NCBI RefSeq assembly: GCF_003610295.1
Contig: NZ_RAPV01000001.1
Span: forward strand, 4,712,001 to 4,776,000
Source of the DNA: Paraburkholderia sp. BL23I1N1
GTDB taxonomy: Bacteria > Pseudomonadota > Gammaproteobacteria > Burkholderiales > Burkholderiaceae
Reading direction: 5' to 3'
DNA: 64,000 nucleotides
Shown piece by piece: positions 9,070 through 53,847 of this stretch. A program made the position numbers and the translations under genes. The first letter of the stretch is position 1. Every line of letters begins with the position of its first letter. The notes beneath the pieces were generated by a model that had not been told where the DNA came from, did not search any database, and was given only the letters and a program-made list of their open reading frames with translations.

Positions 9070-10230
9070 ATGAAAAAATCTTTATTCGTGGTCGCGCTTG
9101 CCGGCGCCTTTGCTATCTCGGCGCATGCGCAAAGCAGCGTGACGCTCTACGGCCTTATCGATGCGGGATTGATCTACACGAACAATCAGGGCGGACATAG
9201 CAACTGGCAGGAAGTAACCAGTTCGACGCAAAACACGGTCTTCGGCCTCAAGGGCTCGGAAGATCTCGGTGGCGGCTTGCATGCGGTCTTCAAACTGGAG
9301 CAGGGCTTCCTTCTGAATAACGGCGCCCAGGCTTTCTCCGGCGACGGTTTCGGTTCTCAGGCGTGGGTCGGTTTGCAAAGCGATCCGTACGGCACCTTGA
9401 CGTTCGGCCGCCAGTTTGACGTGATGAACGACCTTGTCGGACCGCTCACGGCGGAGTTCAATACGTGGGGCGGCAACATGGCCGCGCATCCGTTCGAAAA
9501 CGACAATCTTGCCGGCAATTCGGTTGTTGTGAACAACACGGTCAAATACACGAGCCCGACGTACCGCGGCGTCACGTTCGAAGCGATGTATGCCTTCAGC
9601 AACACGGCGGGCAGCTTCGCGAACAACCGCTCATATGGCTTTGGCGTTTCCTATTCGGAAGGGCCTGTCAATCTTGCCGCCGGATACCTGCAATTCAACA
9701 ACGCAGGCAGCGCGGGCGGTGCCGTTACCACGGGCGATACCAGTGCGAACTTTCTCGCACAACGCCAGCGCATCTGGTCGCTGGGGGGTAACTATACGTT
9801 TGGCCCGGCTACCGTCGGCCTGGTCTGGAGCCATACGCAACTCGACAATGCGTCGGGCGTCTTCTCCTTCGGAACCGGCACTTACCTCGGTGCGGGCGAC
9901 TCTTCCGCCGGAAGCCTGAGTGGGTCGCTGCGCCTCGACAACTACGAAGCAAACGTCAAGTATGCGCTGACCCCTGCGTTGACCCTATCGGGTGCGTATA
10001 CGTACACGCATGGCGCTTATAACGGTTCGTCGCCGGGATGGAATACGGGGATGCTCCAGGCCGATTATTCGATCAGCAAGCGCACCGACTTCTACCTTGA
10101 AGGTGTATATCAGAACGTGCATGGCGCACCTGCGGATTCCGTGCTCTCGCATGCCATGATCAACACGCTTTCGCCTTCGTCGTCGAACTCGCAAGTGGCG
10201 GTTACCGTGGGGATGCGTCACGCGTTCTGA
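9070..10230 (+). CDS. Burkholderia-type general porin
   Basis: 386 aa starting at the ATG at 9070 (GGAG nine bases upstream). The signal peptide ends ISAHA, and the mature protein begins QSSVTLYGLID, the signature N-terminus of the Gram-negative porin 4 family. Alternating beta-strand segments run throughout, and the C-terminus GMRHAF ends in phenylalanine as required for BAM-mediated outer-membrane insertion. It forms a trimeric diffusion channel; the specificity is unknown. An upstream in-frame ATG (8953) would bury the signal peptide and is rejected. Confidence 0.92.
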   Translation: MKKSLFVVALAGAFAISAHAQSSVTLYGLIDAGLIYTNNQGGHSNWQEVTSSTQNTVFGLKGSEDLGGGLHAVFKLEQGFLLNNGAQAFSGDGFGSQAWVGLQSDPYGTLTFGRQFDVMNDLVGPLTAEFNTWGGNMAAHPFENDNLAGNSVVVNNTVKYTSPTYRGVTFEAMYAFSNTAGSFANNRSYGFGVSYSEGPVNLAAGYLQFNNAGSAGGAVTTGDTSANFLAQRQRIWSLGGNYTFGPATVGLVWSHTQLDNASGVFSFGTGTYLGAGDSSAGSLSGSLRLDNYEANVKYALTPALTLSGAYTYTHGAYNGSSPGWNTGMLQADYSISKRTDFYLEGVYQNVHGAPADSVLSHAMINTLSPSSSNSQVAVTVGMRHAF

Positions 10231-10257
10231 TCGAACTCGCGTGACGTGACTTGCAAT

Positions 10258-10289
10258 GACGGATGCCTGCGCCTTGGCAAGCATCCGTC
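10258..10289. terminator. hairpin downstream of porin
   Basis: GACGGATGC pairs with GCATCCGTC across a 14-base loop, 27 bp past the porin stop and just before the convergent LysR pseudogene. There is no T tract, so it is a probable but not canonical terminator. Confidence 0.4.
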
Positions 10290-10305
10290 GACACCGACTG
10301 CGTGC

Positions 10306-11198
10306 TTAACCGCCAGTCTTCAGGAAATCCACAAATACGCGCAACGGTGCCGGCAAATGACGGCGGCCCGGGTAGTAAAGAAAGGGCCCCGGAAAGCGCT
10401 GCCACCACGGCTCCAGGATCGGCTCAAGCGTGCCGCTATCCAGATGCGGGCGCAGCATGTCCTCGAACAGGTGAATCACGCCCACACCCGCGACTGCTGT
10501 GCTGACTGCGAGGTCGATTGCAGCACCGGGCCTCACGAGGAGCGGTCCCGACGGATTCAGCTGGACCACCTCGCCGTCACGCTCGAAATACCAGGTCGGC
10601 GTAGCGCCGCCGGCAAATTGACCACGCAGGCACGCATGAGAAAGCAGGTCGCGCGGATGCTCGGGGCGGCCATGCATGTCGAGATATTCCGGCGCCGCAG
10701 CCGTAGCAAAACGCTGCGCACGCGGACCGATCGGCATCGCGATCATGTCCTGCTCGAGCCGCTCGTCGTAGCGAATGCCGGCGTCGCAGCCGATCGACAG
10801 CACGTCGACGAAGCCATCCTCCACACCACCTCCACGCGTATGTCGGGATAGGCCTTCAGGAACCGCGGGATGATGGTCGGCAACACGATGCGCGCGGCGC
10901 TCGACGGCACGTTGAGTTTGAGCGTGCCGCTCGGTTTGTCCCTGAACCTGTTCAGGACATCCAGCGCGGCTTCCATCTCGCTGAACAACGGCGTCAGCTT
11001 TTCGATCAGGCGCAGTCCGGCTTCGGTCGGGGCCACGCTGCGTGTGGTCCGGTTGAGCAGGCGCAACCCGAGCTTCGACTCGAGACGACGCACAGCAATG
11101 CTTAGACTGGAGGCGGAGACCCCGCTGATGCGCGCGGCGTCGCGAAAGCCGCCAGCGCGAGCGACCGAAACGAAGGCGGCAAGATCGTTGAATTCCAT
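10306..11198 (-). pseudogene. LysR-family transcriptional regulator, broken by a one-base deletion
   Basis: The N-terminal frame starts at 11198 (MEFNDLAAFVSVARAGG) and encodes a complete LysR helix-turn-helix and the start of the effector domain to YPDIRVEVV. A second frame then continues VEDGFVDVLSIGCDAGIRYDE to a normal LysR C-terminus at 10306. The two join if one base is restored at about 10824-10826, in a GTGGAGGTG repeat, giving 297 aa. The break removes most of the ligand-binding domain. It is divergent from the aldo/keto reductase at 11305, the usual target arrangement. A sequencing error is possible. Confidence 0.8.
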
Positions 11199-11304
11199 GG
11201 CCGTTGTTCAAAATGTTTAACACCCCGTGCAATTTAGGCCCGATTATCGAACAACGCAATCCCCGTCATACTGCCGCTCAACCCCTCACATCAAGGAGAG
11301 CGCT

Positions 11305-12174
11305 ATGTCGAACTTCACCCCCGTCGACACATTTCCGCTGGCTGGCCACCCCGTGCGACGCATGGGCTATGGCGCCATGCAACTGGCCGGACCCGGCGTA
11401 TTCGGGCCGCCGAAAGATCGTGACGCAGCGATCGCCCTACTGCGCGAAGCGGTGGCGTCGGGTGTCAATCACATCGATACGAGCGATTTCTACGGGCCGC
11501 ACATGACCAACCAGCTGATTCGCGAAGCACTGCATCCTTACGCAGATGACCTCGTGATCGTCACCAAGGTTGGCGCGGTCCGTGGCAACGACGGTTCATG
11601 GCTGCCGGCGGGCGAGCCGGAAGATATCGAGCGCGGCGTTCACGACAACCTTCGCAATCTCGGGGTCGACGCGCTCGACGTCGTCAACATGCGGATCATG
11701 GGCCGCGTGCACGCTCCTGCCGAAGGGTCGATTGAAAAGCAGGTCGTGGCGCTTGCCGAACTTCAACAGCGCGGGCTGGTTCGTCATATCGGTTTGAGCA
11801 ATGTGACCGCGGCCCAGATCGCCGAGGCACAGGGCATCGCACAGATCGTCTGCGTGCAGAATCAGTACAACCTGGTTCATCGGGAAGACGATGCGCTGGT
11901 CGATACACTGGCAGAGAAGGGGATCGCGTATGTCCCGTTCTTCCCGCTGGGCGGATTCACGCCGATCCAGTCGTCAGCGCTCTCCACGGTCGCGCAAACG
12001 ATCGGCGCGACGCCGATGCAGGTAGCGCTCGCCTGGCTCCTGTATCGCGCGCCTAACATTCTGCTGATTCCGGGCACGTCGTCGCTTGGGCATCTGCGTG
12101 AAAACATGCAGGCCGCACACTTGAGCCTGAGCGACGAGGTGCGCGCTGAACTGGATGCGATCGGCGCGGCGTGA
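11305..12174 (+). CDS. aldo/keto reductase family oxidoreductase
   Basis: 289 aa; the ATG at 11305 has AAGGAG upstream. AKR signatures: GYGAMQLAG near the start, the catalytic Asp/Tyr region HIDTSDFYGP and Lys in VIVTKVG. The usual active-site His strand reads VVNMRIMG, so the His of typical AKRs is replaced here. RHIGLSNVT and the C-terminal IPGTSSLGHLREN NADPH-binding region are present. It would reduce small carbonyls using NADPH in the cytoplasm. The frameshifted LysR gene upstream would have been its regulator. Confidence 0.85.
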   Translation: MSNFTPVDTFPLAGHPVRRMGYGAMQLAGPGVFGPPKDRDAAIALLREAVASGVNHIDTSDFYGPHMTNQLIREALHPYADDLVIVTKVGAVRGNDGSWLPAGEPEDIERGVHDNLRNLGVDALDVVNMRIMGRVHAPAEGSIEKQVVALAELQQRGLVRHIGLSNVTAAQIAEAQGIAQIVCVQNQYNLVHREDDALVDTLAEKGIAYVPFFPLGGFTPIQSSALSTVAQTIGATPMQVALAWLLYRAPNILLIPGTSSLGHLRENMQAAHLSLSDEVRAELDAIGAA

Positions 12175-12217
12175 TCTTGCGTAGGGAATTGCGCACGGCA
12201 CTCGTGTCGGCTCGATG

Positions 12218-13135
<918 letters not shown>

Positions 13136-31385: not shown

Positions 31386-32846
31386 TTAGATACCGCCGAC
31401 GCACATGTACTTGATGACGACGTAATCGTCGATACCGTAATGCGAGCCTTCGCGGCCGAGACCGGATTGCTTGACACCGCCGAACGGCGCGACTTCGTTG
31501 GAAATCAGCCCGGTGTTGATCCCTACCATGCCGTATTCGAGCGCTTCCGCGACACGCCAGACGCGGCCGATATCGCGGCTATAGAAGTACGACGCGAGGC
31601 CGAATTCCGTATCGTTGGCGAGGCGGATCACTTCTTCGTCTGACGAGAAGCGGAACAGCGGCGCGAGCGGCCCGAAGGTTTCGTCGCGCGCGACTTTCAT
31701 GGCCGGTGTGACATCCGCGAGCACGGTCGGCTCGAAGAAGCCGTGACCGAGCGCATGGCGCTTGCCGCCGGTGACGATGCGTGCGCCTTTGGCGAGGGCA
31801 TCTTCGATATGCGACTCGACCTTGAGCGCAGCGGCTTCGTTGATCAGCGGACCTTGCGTGACGCCATCTTCGGTGCCGCGGCCGACCTTGAGTTGTTCGA
31901 CGGCGACGCGCAGTTTTTCAGCGAATGCGTCGTAGACCTTATCGTGCACGTAGAAGCGATTCGTGCAGACGCAGGTCTGACCGCTATTACGATATTTCGA
32001 CGCGATGGCGCCTGCAACGGCCGCATCCAGATCCGCGTCTTCGAACACGATGAACGGCGCATTGCCGCCGAGTTCTAGCGACACTTTCTTGACCGTCGGC
32101 GCGCACTGCGCCATCAGCAGACGGCCTACCGGCGTCGAACCGGTGAAGGACAGTTTGCGCACGACCGGATTGCCGGTCATTTCCGCGCCGATCGCCTTCG
32201 GCTCGCCGGTAACGACGTTGAACACGCCGCGCGGCACGCCGGCACGTTCGGCCAGCACGGCGAGGGCGAGTGCCGACAGCGGCGTGGCTTCGGCCGGTTT
32301 GACGATGATCGGGCAGCCGGCGGCGAGCGCCGGGCCGACTTTCCGCGTGATCATGGCCGCCGGGAAATTCCACGGGGTGATGGCTGCGCAGACGCCGATC
32401 GGTTCTTTCGTCACGACAATGCGTTTGTCGCCTGCCGGCGTGGGGATGGTGTCGCCGTTGACGCGTTTGCCTTCTTCCGCGAACCATTCCAGAAACGAGG
32501 CGGCGTAGAGGATTTCGCCTTTGGCTTCGGCGAGGGGTTTGCCTTGTTCGGTGGTCAGGATTCTGGCCAGATCGTCGGCGTTTTCCAGCATGAGCTCATG
32601 CCATTTGCGCAGGATCGTGGCGCGGTGTTTAGCGGTGGTGGCGCGCCATGCCGGCCATGCGGCGTTGGCCGTGTCGATTGCACGGCGGGTTTCGGTTGTG
32701 CCCATGCGGGGCACTGTGGCGATTGTTTCGCCTGTGGCTGGGTTTTTTACTTCGAATGTTGTGGTGTCGTCGGCGGATTGCCATTCGCCTGCTATGTAGG
32801 CTTTTGTTTTTAGTAGGGAGGGGTCTTTTAGGACTAGCGTCGGCAT
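31386..32846 (-). CDS. gabD: NADP-dependent succinate-semialdehyde dehydrogenase
   Basis: 486 aa. GabD-type motifs: TPWNFPAAMITRK, FTGSTPVGRLLM, LELGGNAPFIVFEDADL with the general base Glu, and NSGQTCVCTNRFYV with the catalytic Cys. It oxidises succinate semialdehyde to succinate, the second step of GABA use. It lies 3' of gabT on the same strand but 714 bp away because of the repeat. The first about 45 codons are almost all A/C-ending, including rare CTA and ATA, unlike the rest of the gene. Confidence 0.93.
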   Translation of the reverse strand: MPTLVLKDPSLLKTKAYIAGEWQSADDTTTFEVKNPATGETIATVPRMGTTETRRAIDTANAAWPAWRATTAKHRATILRKWHELMLENADDLARILTTEQGKPLAEAKGEILYAASFLEWFAEEGKRVNGDTIPTPAGDKRIVVTKEPIGVCAAITPWNFPAAMITRKVGPALAAGCPIIVKPAEATPLSALALAVLAERAGVPRGVFNVVTGEPKAIGAEMTGNPVVRKLSFTGSTPVGRLLMAQCAPTVKKVSLELGGNAPFIVFEDADLDAAVAGAIASKYRNSGQTCVCTNRFYVHDKVYDAFAEKLRVAVEQLKVGRGTEDGVTQGPLINEAAALKVESHIEDALAKGARIVTGGKRHALGHGFFEPTVLADVTPAMKVARDETFGPLAPLFRFSSDEEVIRLANDTEFGLASYFYSRDIGRVWRVAEALEYGMVGINTGLISNEVAPFGGVKQSGLGREGSHYGIDDYVVIKYMCVGGI

Positions 32847-32887
32847 TTTTGGGTTTGCTCCTGGGATTTGGGTCTTTGGGTTTTTTT

Positions 32888-33115
32888 GCCTGCGCGGCGC
32901 TTGTCTGTGTTTTTATGGTGTTGGCCTTTCCTTGTTTTCTTGGTGGTCTATTAGCGTTGCCCCTGTGCGGGGCGGCACTTACTTTCTTTGCCGCCGCAAA
33001 GAAAGATAAGCAAAGAAAGCGGCTCAAACCGCTAACTTTTAAGCGGGTCCCCCGCACAGTCACGGTAGTGGTGCATCTGGAATCCGTGCTCTCGCACATT
33101 CGGCGTGAGTGACAA
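32888..33115 (+). repeat. left arm of a large dispersed inverted repeat
   Basis: This arm is matched in inverted orientation by 33315-33550, with 199 bp between. Conserved landmarks from outside inwards: GCCTGCGCGGCGC, GGCCTTTCCTTGTTTTCTT, GTCTATTAGCG, the mini-hairpin GCCCCTGTGCGGGGC, a CTTTCTTTGC...GCAAAGAAAG hairpin, AAGCGGCTCAAACCGCTAAC, and GTGGTGCATCTGGAATCCG. A third truncated copy lies at 53703-53816. I see no transposase or ORF that looks real, so it is either a non-autonomous element or a structured intergenic repeat. Confidence 0.85.
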
Positions 33116-33314
33116 GGGCGTCATACTTCCGGCGGCGCTGCGCGCGCCGACGCCCATTTCGTAAAACCGGCCACTACTTTTTTTGCACTCGCGTTTCATT
33201 CGGCGCTTCGCCGACGCGAAGCCGATGGCCCCCGCCGCGCGACGTGAGACCCACGGTTTTCCATGCATACCCATCCGCGACGCACGCAGTGCGGAGTGGG
33301 AGCTGATGAGTTCT

Positions 33315-33550
33315 TTGTCACTCACGCGAAATGTGCGAGCGCACGGATTCCAGATGCACCACTACCCTTTCCAAGCTAGGGGACCCGCTTAAAAGTTAGC
33401 GGTTTGAGCCGCTTTCTTTTGCCTACTTTTCTTTGCGGCAGGCAAAGAAAAGTAGGTGCTGCCCCGCACAGGGGCGACGCTAATAGACCGATAAGAAAAC
33501 AAGGAAAGGCCAACGCCACAAGCAAACAGACGAACAAGCGCCGCGCAGGC
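33315..33550 (-). repeat. right arm of the dispersed inverted repeat
   Basis: Reverse-complement partner of 32888-33115, with the same landmarks in reverse order. Differences are scattered substitutions and small indels, for example CTTTCTTTTG for CTTTCTTTGC, so the arms have diverged rather than arisen very recently. Together the arms fill the gap between gabT and gabD. Confidence 0.85.
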
Positions 33551-33560
33551 CAAAACCCCA

Positions 33561-34844
33561 TCAAACAGCTACAGCAACACTCTCCTTCAGCACAGCTTCA
33601 AGAATCCCCATCGCCTCGTCAAAAACAGAGTCCTGAATCGTAAGCGGGAACAGAAACCGAACCACATTCGAATAAACACCACAAACCAGCAACAACAACC
33701 CGCGCTCAAGCGCCCGCGCCTGCACCCGCTTGGTGAACTCAGCATCCGGCTCCGTCCCACCTGCCTTGCAGAACTCGACAGCCACCATCCCGCCCGGCCC
33801 ACGCACGTCGGCAATCTGCGGCACTTCGCTCTGAAGCGCGATCAGCTTCGCCTTGACACGATCGCCCAAAACAGTAGCCCGCTCGCAGAGCTTCTCTTCA
33901 TCGATGATATCGAGCACGGCATGCGCGGACGCAACCGCCAACGGGTTACCCGCATACGTACCGCCCAAACCGCCAGGCGCCGCCGCATCCATCAAATCAG
34001 CACGCCCGACCACACCCGACAACGGCATGCCGCCCGCCAGGCTCTTGGCCATCGTCATCAGATCAGGCACCACGTCATAGTGATGCATTGCAAACAACTT
34101 GCCGGTACGGGCAAAACCCGTCTGCACTTCATCGGCAATCAGCAAAATGCCATGTTCGTTGCACAGCTTGCGCAAAGCGCGCACGAACTCAGCCGGCGCC
34201 GGATAGAAACCGCCTTCGCCCTGAACCGGTTCGAAAATAATCGCCGCGACACGCTTCGGATCGATGTCGGCCTTGAACAGAAACTCGATCGCCTTCAGCG
34301 AATCAGCCGTCGCCACGCCGTGCAGCGGGTTCGGGAACGGAGCGTGGAACACGTCCGCCGGGAACGGGCCAAAGCCGATCTTGTACGGCGCAACCTTGCC
34401 GGTCAGCGCCATGCCCATCATCGTCCGGCCATGGAACCCGCCAGTGAACGCAATCACGCCCGGGCGGCCAGTCGCGGCACGCGCAATCTTGATCGCGTTT
34501 TCAACCGCTTCGGCACCCGTCGTGAAGAAGGCAGTCTTCTTCGGATAGTCGCCCGGCGCGCGCGCGTTGATCTTTTCAGCCAGCTCCACGTACGACGCGT
34601 ACGGCACGATCTGATACGCGGTGTGCGTGAAATGATCGAGCTGGTCGCGGATCGCCGCCAGAATCTTGGGGTGACGGTGGCCCGTGTTGCACACGGCGAT
34701 ACCCGCGGCGAAATCGATGAAACGGCGGCCTTCGACGTCCCACAACTCGGCGTTCTCCGCGCGCTCGGCGTAGAAATCGCACATCACCCCAACACCGCGC
34801 GGCGTGGCGGCGTCTTTGCGGCTCTTCAGTTCAGCATTCTTCAT
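33561..34844 (-). CDS. gabT: 4-aminobutyrate aminotransferase
   Basis: 427 aa class-III PLP aminotransferase. Motifs: FFTTGAEAVENAIKIAR, FTGGFHGRT, LLIADEVQTGFARTG with the PLP Asp, MAKSLAGGMPLSG with the PLP Lys, and GGTYAGNPLA. It moves the amino group of GABA to 2-oxoglutarate, giving succinate semialdehyde for GabD. AAGGAG precedes the start. The last about 45 codons are nearly all G/T-ending, a sharp change from the 5' part. It is divergent from gabR. Confidence 0.94.
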   Translation of the reverse strand: MKNAELKSRKDAATPRGVGVMCDFYAERAENAELWDVEGRRFIDFAAGIAVCNTGHRHPKILAAIRDQLDHFTHTAYQIVPYASYVELAEKINARAPGDYPKKTAFFTTGAEAVENAIKIARAATGRPGVIAFTGGFHGRTMMGMALTGKVAPYKIGFGPFPADVFHAPFPNPLHGVATADSLKAIEFLFKADIDPKRVAAIIFEPVQGEGGFYPAPAEFVRALRKLCNEHGILLIADEVQTGFARTGKLFAMHHYDVVPDLMTMAKSLAGGMPLSGVVGRADLMDAAAPGGLGGTYAGNPLAVASAHAVLDIIDEEKLCERATVLGDRVKAKLIALQSEVPQIADVRGPGGMVAVEFCKAGGTEPDAEFTKRVQARALERGLLLLVCGVYSNVVRFLFPLTIQDSVFDEAMGILEAVLKESVAVAV

Positions 34845-53702: not shown

Positions 53703-53816
53703 GCGGCGGCAAAGAAAGTAAGTGCCGCCCCGCACAGGGGCAACGCTAATAGACCACTAAGAAAACAAGGAAAGGCCAACGCCACAACCAAACAAACGAA
53801 CAAGCGCCGCGAAGGC
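53703..53816 (-). repeat. truncated third copy of the dispersed repeat
   Basis: Matches the outer half of the arm at 33315-33550: GGCAAAGAAAGTAAG, GCCCCGCACAGGGGC, AACGCTAATAGACC, AAGAAAACAAGGAAAGGCC and GCGCCGCGAAGGC in the same order. The inner half is absent; the copy starts exactly where the IS3-type end finishes, so the insertion or a later deletion cut it. Confidence 0.85.
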
Positions 53817-53847
53817 AAAAACCAAACCCAAACCCAAATCTAATCCA

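Follow-up and report, generated by a model that had tools for sequence, protein, structure and literature searches.

The DNA analyzed here, called the window below, is a stretch of 64,000 nucleotides from the genome of Paraburkholderia sp. BL23I1N1 (contig NZ_RAPV01000001.1, positions 4,712,001 to 4,776,000). Between its gabD and gabT genes lies a dispersed repeat element with two inverted arms of ~250 bp each (32880-33558). Arms of this family are bordered on their outer side by DNA that is rich in G and T on the strand running 5'→3' into the arm, here called the top strand, whatever gene occupies the flank. Tentatively, each arm can be read as a polar mutator element that exposes its outer flank to error-prone synthesis.

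The element and its copies

The left arm (32880-33130, plus strand, outer side to the left) is 86.7% identical to the right arm (33315-33558, minus strand, outer side to the right), whose outer end adjoins the gabT stop codon. A mutation gradient extends from each. The left one (31900-32879) makes the plus strand G/T-rich over the start of gabD (31386-32846, minus strand), and the right one (33559-34560) makes the minus strand G/T-rich over the end of gabT (33561-34844, minus strand); both outer limits are approximate. The initial annotation of this DNA had reported 74% G+T on the plus strand at 32761-32880 and 70% A+C at 33551-33670, and recounting gave 74.2% and 70.0%. Its codon counts, 41 A/C third positions in the first 44 codons of gabD and about 40 G/T in the last 46 of gabT, were reproduced to within one (40/44 and 41/46). 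The corresponding values for the distal parts of the two genes are only 0.60 and 0.57.

In the whole 9.1-Mb genome the arm family gives 132 matches, which were merged by hand into 40 loci where arms occur both singly and as inverted pairs. The arms analyzed come from the window and 39 stretches elsewhere in the genome; at least four further cores exist beyond those sampled. The element is present in 29 of 35 same-genus genomes searched, BL23I1N1 included, and its exact core occurs at at least 80 named loci assigned to Paraburkholderia or, for one strain, to Burkholderia sp. OK233. The phage collection searched contained no match.

Size and range of the skew

On the top strand, G+T is at least 0.57 in the first 100 bp at all 70 arm ends. 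This count leaves out duplicate rows of locus L044, one short match at L021 and two half-arms without an outer part. Among the 69 arms with a complete 500-bp flank the mean over 0-500 bp is 0.634 and the lowest value 0.548, against a null of 0.500 (standard deviation 0.034) from 2004 overlapping 500-bp segments, all lying over 3 kb away from the nearest arm. The claim that the bias follows the repeat whatever the gene thus holds at 69 of 69 measurable arms. An excess of G/T at other copies was the test that the initial annotation had set for itself; the excess is present, and the contrary outcome did not occur. G+T over the 70 arm ends falls with distance, from 0.746 at 0-25 bp through 0.670 (50-100 bp), 0.615 (200-300 bp), 0.609 (400-500 bp) and 0.545 (700-1000 bp) to 0.505 at 1.5-3 kb. 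An exponential fit has an amplitude of 0.205 and a length of 519 ± 27 bp, in agreement with the fading over a few hundred base pairs first described. By eye, the range differs between copies within the genus. The same outer profile is repeated at 128 cores of named relatives.

At four-fold degenerate sites, C decreases from 0.42 at 4-6 kb to 0.11 at 0-100 bp from the arm and T increases near the arm from 0.08 to about 0.35, while G changes from 0.43 to 0.48-0.58 (0-500 bp) and A from 0.07 to 0.02-0.05. The skew affects non-coding DNA as well as genes of both orientations, toward the arm and away from it. Values for genes reading away are lower in most bins, but their baseline is also lower (0.463 vs 0.555). 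A called gene lies within 400 bp of 43 of the 70 arms. Over the 100 codons closest to the arm, the four-fold G/T fraction on the strand running into it is 0.59-0.95 in every one of these 43 arm-gene pairs; one gene is entered twice.

The third copy in the window is a truncated arm that retains the outer half (53703-53821, minus strand). The skew outside it, to its right, is weaker, with G+T of 0.67, 0.62, 0.55, 0.54, 0.56 and 0.50 in successive 100-bp intervals. Four further strongly skewed 300-bp segments were found away from known arms, in a search that covered stretches picked for their arms and is therefore no random sample. By eye, two of them adjoin a decayed arm at locus L017. This arm (L017, 3380-4475) is a barely recognizable relic, again by eye, with G/T-rich DNA on one side and A/C-rich DNA on the other. 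From this relic, a mutation track seems to outlive its element.

Polarity and single arms

The skew begins at the core of the arm and runs outward. At 22 solo or broken arms the inner side is flat, with means of 0.46-0.53 in 20 bins over 2 kb. Outside, solo arms are skewed as strongly as paired ones, both in this genome (0.635, n=20, vs 0.631, n=41) and at the named loci (0.630, n=37, vs 0.628, n=83). The initial annotation had described a mirror symmetry centered on the inverted repeat. Skew is indeed found on both sides, but it is not a property of the palindrome: one arm suffices, and it acts outward only. Because solo arms are skewed on the outside alone and to the same degree as pairs, the mirror symmetry amounts to two polar arms placed back to back.

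The direction of replication has no detectable influence. Arms met by the fork from the outer side (24) and from the inner side (22) have the same G+T in the first 100 bp (0.700 vs 0.700, P=0.96). This comparison used arms of contig C1, with fork direction taken from the sign of the GC skew along C1, and excluded those of C2 and C3. A polar replication-fork barrier is rejected given this lack of effect. The GC skew of sampled stretches along C1 (6.98 Mb) forms four arcs, as if two replicons had been fused or joined in assembly.

Comparison with homologs lacking the element

Four genes were compared between genomes with and without an adjoining element; most element-adjacent copies are skewed and most copies without an element are not. 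For gabT, codons 328-377 (anchored by tblastn, as for gabD) score 0.63-0.86 in 8 genomes with the element and 0.30-0.53 in 15 without; the ranges for the last 49 codons overlap (0.67-0.93 vs 0.45-0.76). For gabD, codons 1-50 score 0.77-0.90 in five of eight element genomes and 0.42-0.66 in 14 genomes without one. The closest relative without the element, G022, has a GabT that is 97% identical and ordinary codons, so that the skew, most simply, would postdate the arrival of the element. The matched parts of gabT and gabD lie 17-187 bp apart without the element and about 715-1002 bp apart with it, in genomes that have both genes on one contig (G008, with gene parts missing, was omitted).

The citrate synthase gene, in three bins counted from its 3' end, averages 0.87/0.81/0.78 in four copies with the element and 0.58/0.58/0.61 in 26 without. 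Among the 17 same-genus copies without the element, several of which look like a second paralog rather than orthologs, the first two bins reach 0.78 and 0.75 and slightly overlap the element copies (at least 0.77 and 0.70), whereas the third bin separates the two groups (at most 0.70 vs at least 0.74). A DEAD-box helicase gene beside a solo arm behaves similarly (0.86/0.90/0.80 in four copies with the element, 0.65/0.53/0.52 in 26 without). Its first bin overlaps, with element copies from 0.72 and others up to 0.86. In the second bin, G035 (1.00; no aligned sites in bin 1) is the one copy without an element to reach the element copies (at least 0.87), and the third again separates (at most 0.71 vs at least 0.75). 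The helicase gene of G017 is skewed without an element (0.86/0.72/0.71); a weak 29-bp arm match downstream of it (E=0.004) is perhaps an arm remnant. The same codons in orthologs that have no repeat nearby, an outcome the initial annotation had named as contrary, are therefore not the general finding. Exceptions exist, namely three gabD copies with little skew beside an element and this one skewed helicase gene with a possible remnant.

Where both members of a pair of genomes carry the element, four-fold divergence near it exceeds that farther away (near/far ratio 1.12-1.79 in 7 pairs); in pairs without it the ratio is 0.90-1.08 in five of six and 1.41 in the sixth. These pairs share members. 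The moderately raised divergence suggests that the mutational process continues.

Substitution spectrum

The substitution tables were restricted to sites with at least 60% agreement among the element-less genomes chosen. At sites near the element, the three closest element genomes differ from the consensus of six element-less relatives by C>T (0.43), C>G (0.33) and G>T (0.17), compared with 0.05, 0.17 and 0.04 in leave-one-out controls. Overall, G>T ranges from 0.14 to 0.23 near the element and from 0.02 to 0.05 in controls. The gain of G depends on the preceding base. In gabT and gabD, C>G is in clear excess only after a 5' G (0.39 vs 0.05 in the control); after A, C and T it is 0.29, 0.30 and 0.23, with controls of 0.26, 0.28 and 0.30. 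In the citrate synthase and helicase genes, C>G after G is 0.44 (control 0.06) and GT>GG is 0.70 (n=20; control 0.07, n=45), while after pyrimidines there is an excess of C>T (P=3e-5) and none of C>G (Fisher P=0.30). Since the lineages share history, these P values are too small. The gain of G is also largest after G in the non-coding flanks, where the G-over-T odds at sites preceded by G, relative to those preceded by a pyrimidine, increase from 0.69 far from the arm to 1.34 near it.

A change of 5'-GX to 5'-GG on the copied strand, as found here at GC and GT, is reportedly the hallmark of E. coli Pol IV (work of Wagner and Nohmi from 2000). The prominence of GC>GG, GT>GG and G>T points to error-prone copying of the top strand, which would be the template and be copied outward; the gains of T are compatible with insertion of A or with damage. 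The initial annotation had likened C>T plus A>G change to strand-specific deamination or single-stranded exposure. One strand is indeed targeted and exposure fits, but deamination alone does not account for C>G at GC, T>G at GT, or G>T. A diversity-generating retroelement does not match either: the changes fall mainly at C/G of the top strand over ~1 kb and are not adenine-specific (no search was made for a template copy or reverse transcriptase).

The core and its symmetry

The core of the arm consists of a pyrimidine stem, a purine stem and a mirror-matched purine third strand, all on one strand. In the left arm it reads CTTTCTTTG - CAAAGAAAG - CAAAGAAAG (32982-33019, plus strand) and in the right arm CTTTTCTTTG - CAAAGAAAAG - CAAAAGAAAG (33412-33452, minus strand). 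The order of these parts is that of a class II (Y-R-R) intrastrand triplex as described by Holder et al. 2015 (PMC4666352), and the three strands vary together; the triplex itself is putative. Three variants occur, CTTTTCTTT, CTTTCTTT and CTTCTCTTT, and both purine strands match in each. When 5 of 190 cores are skipped and 14 with one untyped purine strand set aside, the purine strands agree in variant in 171 of 171; the pyrimidine strand disagrees with them in 5 of these. These 171, with both purine strands typed, comprise 46 of the 62 cores of this genome and 125 of the 128 of the named relatives, but only the 46 are free of selection, as most named loci were picked by the three-strand pattern. 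Of 369 genomes of the class, 29 contain the exact A/T core pattern. Read backwards as a control, it was absent among the matches listed.

Proposed mechanism and alternatives

With slightly less than even confidence, we propose that the core of each arm stalls copying of the top strand and that the resulting outer gap is filled in an error-prone manner. When single-stranded, the core would fold into a hairpin joined by the third strand, and this intrastrand triplex would halt the polymerase. Any polymerase copying the top strand would move outward from the core, for either fork direction. Synthesis would restart farther out and leave an outer single-stranded gap of roughly half a kilobase, to be filled by an error-prone, probably DinB-like polymerase, perhaps over a damaged template. 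Slippage errors would turn GX into GG, and insertions of A would convert C and G to T. Over evolutionary time, the recurrence of such events would leave a top strand rich in G and T whose bias fades with the spread of gap lengths. Because copying of the top strand always runs outward, a stall would account for the one-sidedness, the sufficiency of single arms and the indifference to fork direction. We infer the initiating event.

Several observations weigh against this proposal. Truncated arms missing part of the core still have skewed flanks, which we read as fossils. At locus L016 an arm is interrupted at the core by a 2.6-kb insertion (10060-12620), whose end beside the half-core lacks skew, which suggests that the insertion is young or the half-core inactive. 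In three of the eight element genomes gabD scores only 0.57-0.62, within the element-less range. The three core variants amount to just two coordinated changes and possibly reflect three founder lineages. Many four-fold sites with a 5' G lie in Gly and Arg codons, so codon family is a partial confounder, though the same tendency in the non-coding flanks argues against its being the whole explanation. Y-family polymerase genes also occur in genomes without a detected element, so their presence does not discriminate.

The remaining points concern other motifs and families. No outer skew accompanies a G/C-rich triplex motif of the same class (0.495, 0.509 and 0.490 at 35 cores of 30 loci), which is present in 79 of 369 genomes. 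A triplex motif as such is therefore insufficient, and a general rule that any intrastrand triplex gives skew is refuted. For this G/C-rich motif, Holder et al. (PMC4666352) observed no stable triplex in vivo. In other families the exact A/T core (25 genomes, 68 cores, from 60 stretches sampled among those listed, some ending at contig ends) is skewed outward over only about 200 bp, with values of 0.615 and 0.550 within the first 200 bp and a flat course from about 300 bp. Sixty of the 68 cores exceed 0.5 over 0-300 bp. At 75-200 bp, where alignment between copies has ended in the four genomes checked, the outer side has 0.565 (52 of 67 above 0.5) and the inner side 0.521. The polarity is thus common to the families and the kilobase range special to this genus. 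The long gradient needs something that belongs to this genus, since the other families show a short one.

An unlikely alternative start for the same polymerase signature is a host nickase or relaxase that nicks the bottom strand at the core, so that outward error-prone displacement synthesis or nick translation is primed from the 3' end. Polarity and outward synthesis along the top strand fit it equally well, and a genus-specific enzyme would account for the short gradient in other families. No such enzyme was found, however. The sole RAYT-like protein is present in 23 of 23 same-genus genomes, including G009, G010 and G011, in which no element was found, and it is rejected as the nickase. In this genome (G000) its active-site residues look replaced by eye. 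We prefer a stall to a nick, since the symmetry conserved in the core belongs to a structure at which polymerases would be expected to stop. The RAYT-like (Y1_Tnp) protein is encoded at L156, about 1460-2166 (C1, about 80 kb); by eye its HUH and tyrosine positions look replaced, and it is possibly a domesticated, non-catalytic relative. More doubtful than a nick is the idea of the initial annotation, in which a top strand exposed for long periods suffers spontaneous deamination or other damage and no special polymerase takes part. The loss of C and A and the gain of T at four-fold sites agree with it, but C>G and T>G after a 5' G, and G>T, are not deamination products.

The other explanations are much less probable. 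Selection for a G/T-rich strand beside the element, through RecA or Chi-like loading or a lack of structure, would fit the shift of the entire strand within and between genes. It does not predict G>T or the lower share of G within G+T, CTA and ATA codons are seen by eye in gabD, and the outcome hinges on the 5' base. No 6-8-mer stands far above composition (best z 4.4), and selection for a Chi-like or other motif is rejected on this ground. A strand-specific cytosine deaminase acting near the repeat is at least as improbable. C>T is strongest after pyrimidines in gabT and gabD (0.40-0.42 vs 0.04-0.06), but in the citrate synthase and helicase genes C>T after G (0.37; control 0.16) is similar to that after C (0.33; control 0.05). 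Neither GX>GG nor G>T would be explained, and a context-specific enzyme is rejected because C is depleted in all contexts examined. We give the least credence to replication or transcription asymmetry or palindrome cleavage with resection. G/T on the strand entering a terminus-like site does resemble ordinary leading-strand skew. Replication asymmetry, an alternative already raised in the initial annotation, is unsupported given equal skew for both fork directions. Transcription is rejected as the cause because genes in both orientations are skewed, and palindrome or cruciform cleavage because single arms act alone and outward only; this group of explanations is largely refuted.

Relationship to known systems

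We file the gradient with local mutagenesis associated with non-B DNA. Bacteria may possess dispersed directional mutator elements, short cis-acting repeats that repeatedly trigger DinB-type synthesis outward from one end and hypermutate a stretch of fixed length on one strand; we put this at a little under an even chance. Any neighboring gene would be affected, with its codon usage and possibly local evolvability shaped by the repeat, and the phenomenon would correspond, in bacteria and on the scale of evolution, to strand-coordinated clustered mutation. A repeat of this kind can override codon usage and raise the divergence of adjoining genes. Dozens of sites per genome offer a natural read-out of possible single-strand gaps and of the polymerase that may fill them. 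With core, orientation, range and mutation signature defined, the effect of bacterial non-B-DNA repeats on their neighbors becomes testable.

The closest known motifs are those of the TM-ECO type (PMC4666352), which likewise have a Y stem, an R stem and an R third strand on one strand and are dispersed, also as inverted pairs. Holder et al. link these motifs to variable flanking DNA, and the word 'skew' does not appear in the main text of that paper. The elements described here differ in having A/T-rich stems within a longer arm and a polar, kilobase-long, base-specific substitution gradient, which the G/C-rich motif lacks. Triplex repeats with variable flanks are thus already known from that source. 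No earlier report of a polar base-specific gradient with a polymerase-like signature, or of the core letters, was found in those parts of the open-licence literature that were searched.

The spectrum resembles mutagenesis by Pol IV (DinB) in its C>G and T>G changes. Pol IV raises A:T>C:G, A:T>G:C and C:G>G:C changes (PMC12549603, citing Wagner and Nohmi) and extends C.C mispairs, which MutHLS leaves uncorrected (PMC8278400). Matches to the Rfam family RF02421, Bp1_684, lie on the outer part of the arm. Only the outward-reading match in the right arm (33446-33544, plus strand) is above the gathering score of 44, with 45.5 bits; the one in the left arm (32894-32988, minus strand), also outward-reading, has 32.6 bits. 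Bp1_684 is described as a small RNA candidate from one B. pseudomallei locus (PMC3521395), whereas the matches here fall within a dispersed DNA repeat. Since they lie on the outer arm, some annotations of this small RNA may be copies of the element.

The arms found here also recall smaller repeats. REP and BIME elements, which are associated with RAYT transposases, are dispersed palindromic units that occur singly and as inverted pairs, and in this the present elements are alike. They differ in that the arms are far longer and the core is triplex-symmetric. In place of an active RAYT with HUH and tyrosine residues linked to the repeats, only the conserved homolog was found, its residues apparently lost (by eye). 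We know of no comparable flank gradient at REP or BIME elements, and Pol IV mutagenesis is, to our knowledge, known from overproduction or stress and not as an evolutionary trace tied to a repeat. At L170, in a distant genome, a REP-like CCCCGGC-GAAA-GCCGGGG palindrome is seen by eye near the outer side of the core, upstream of it.

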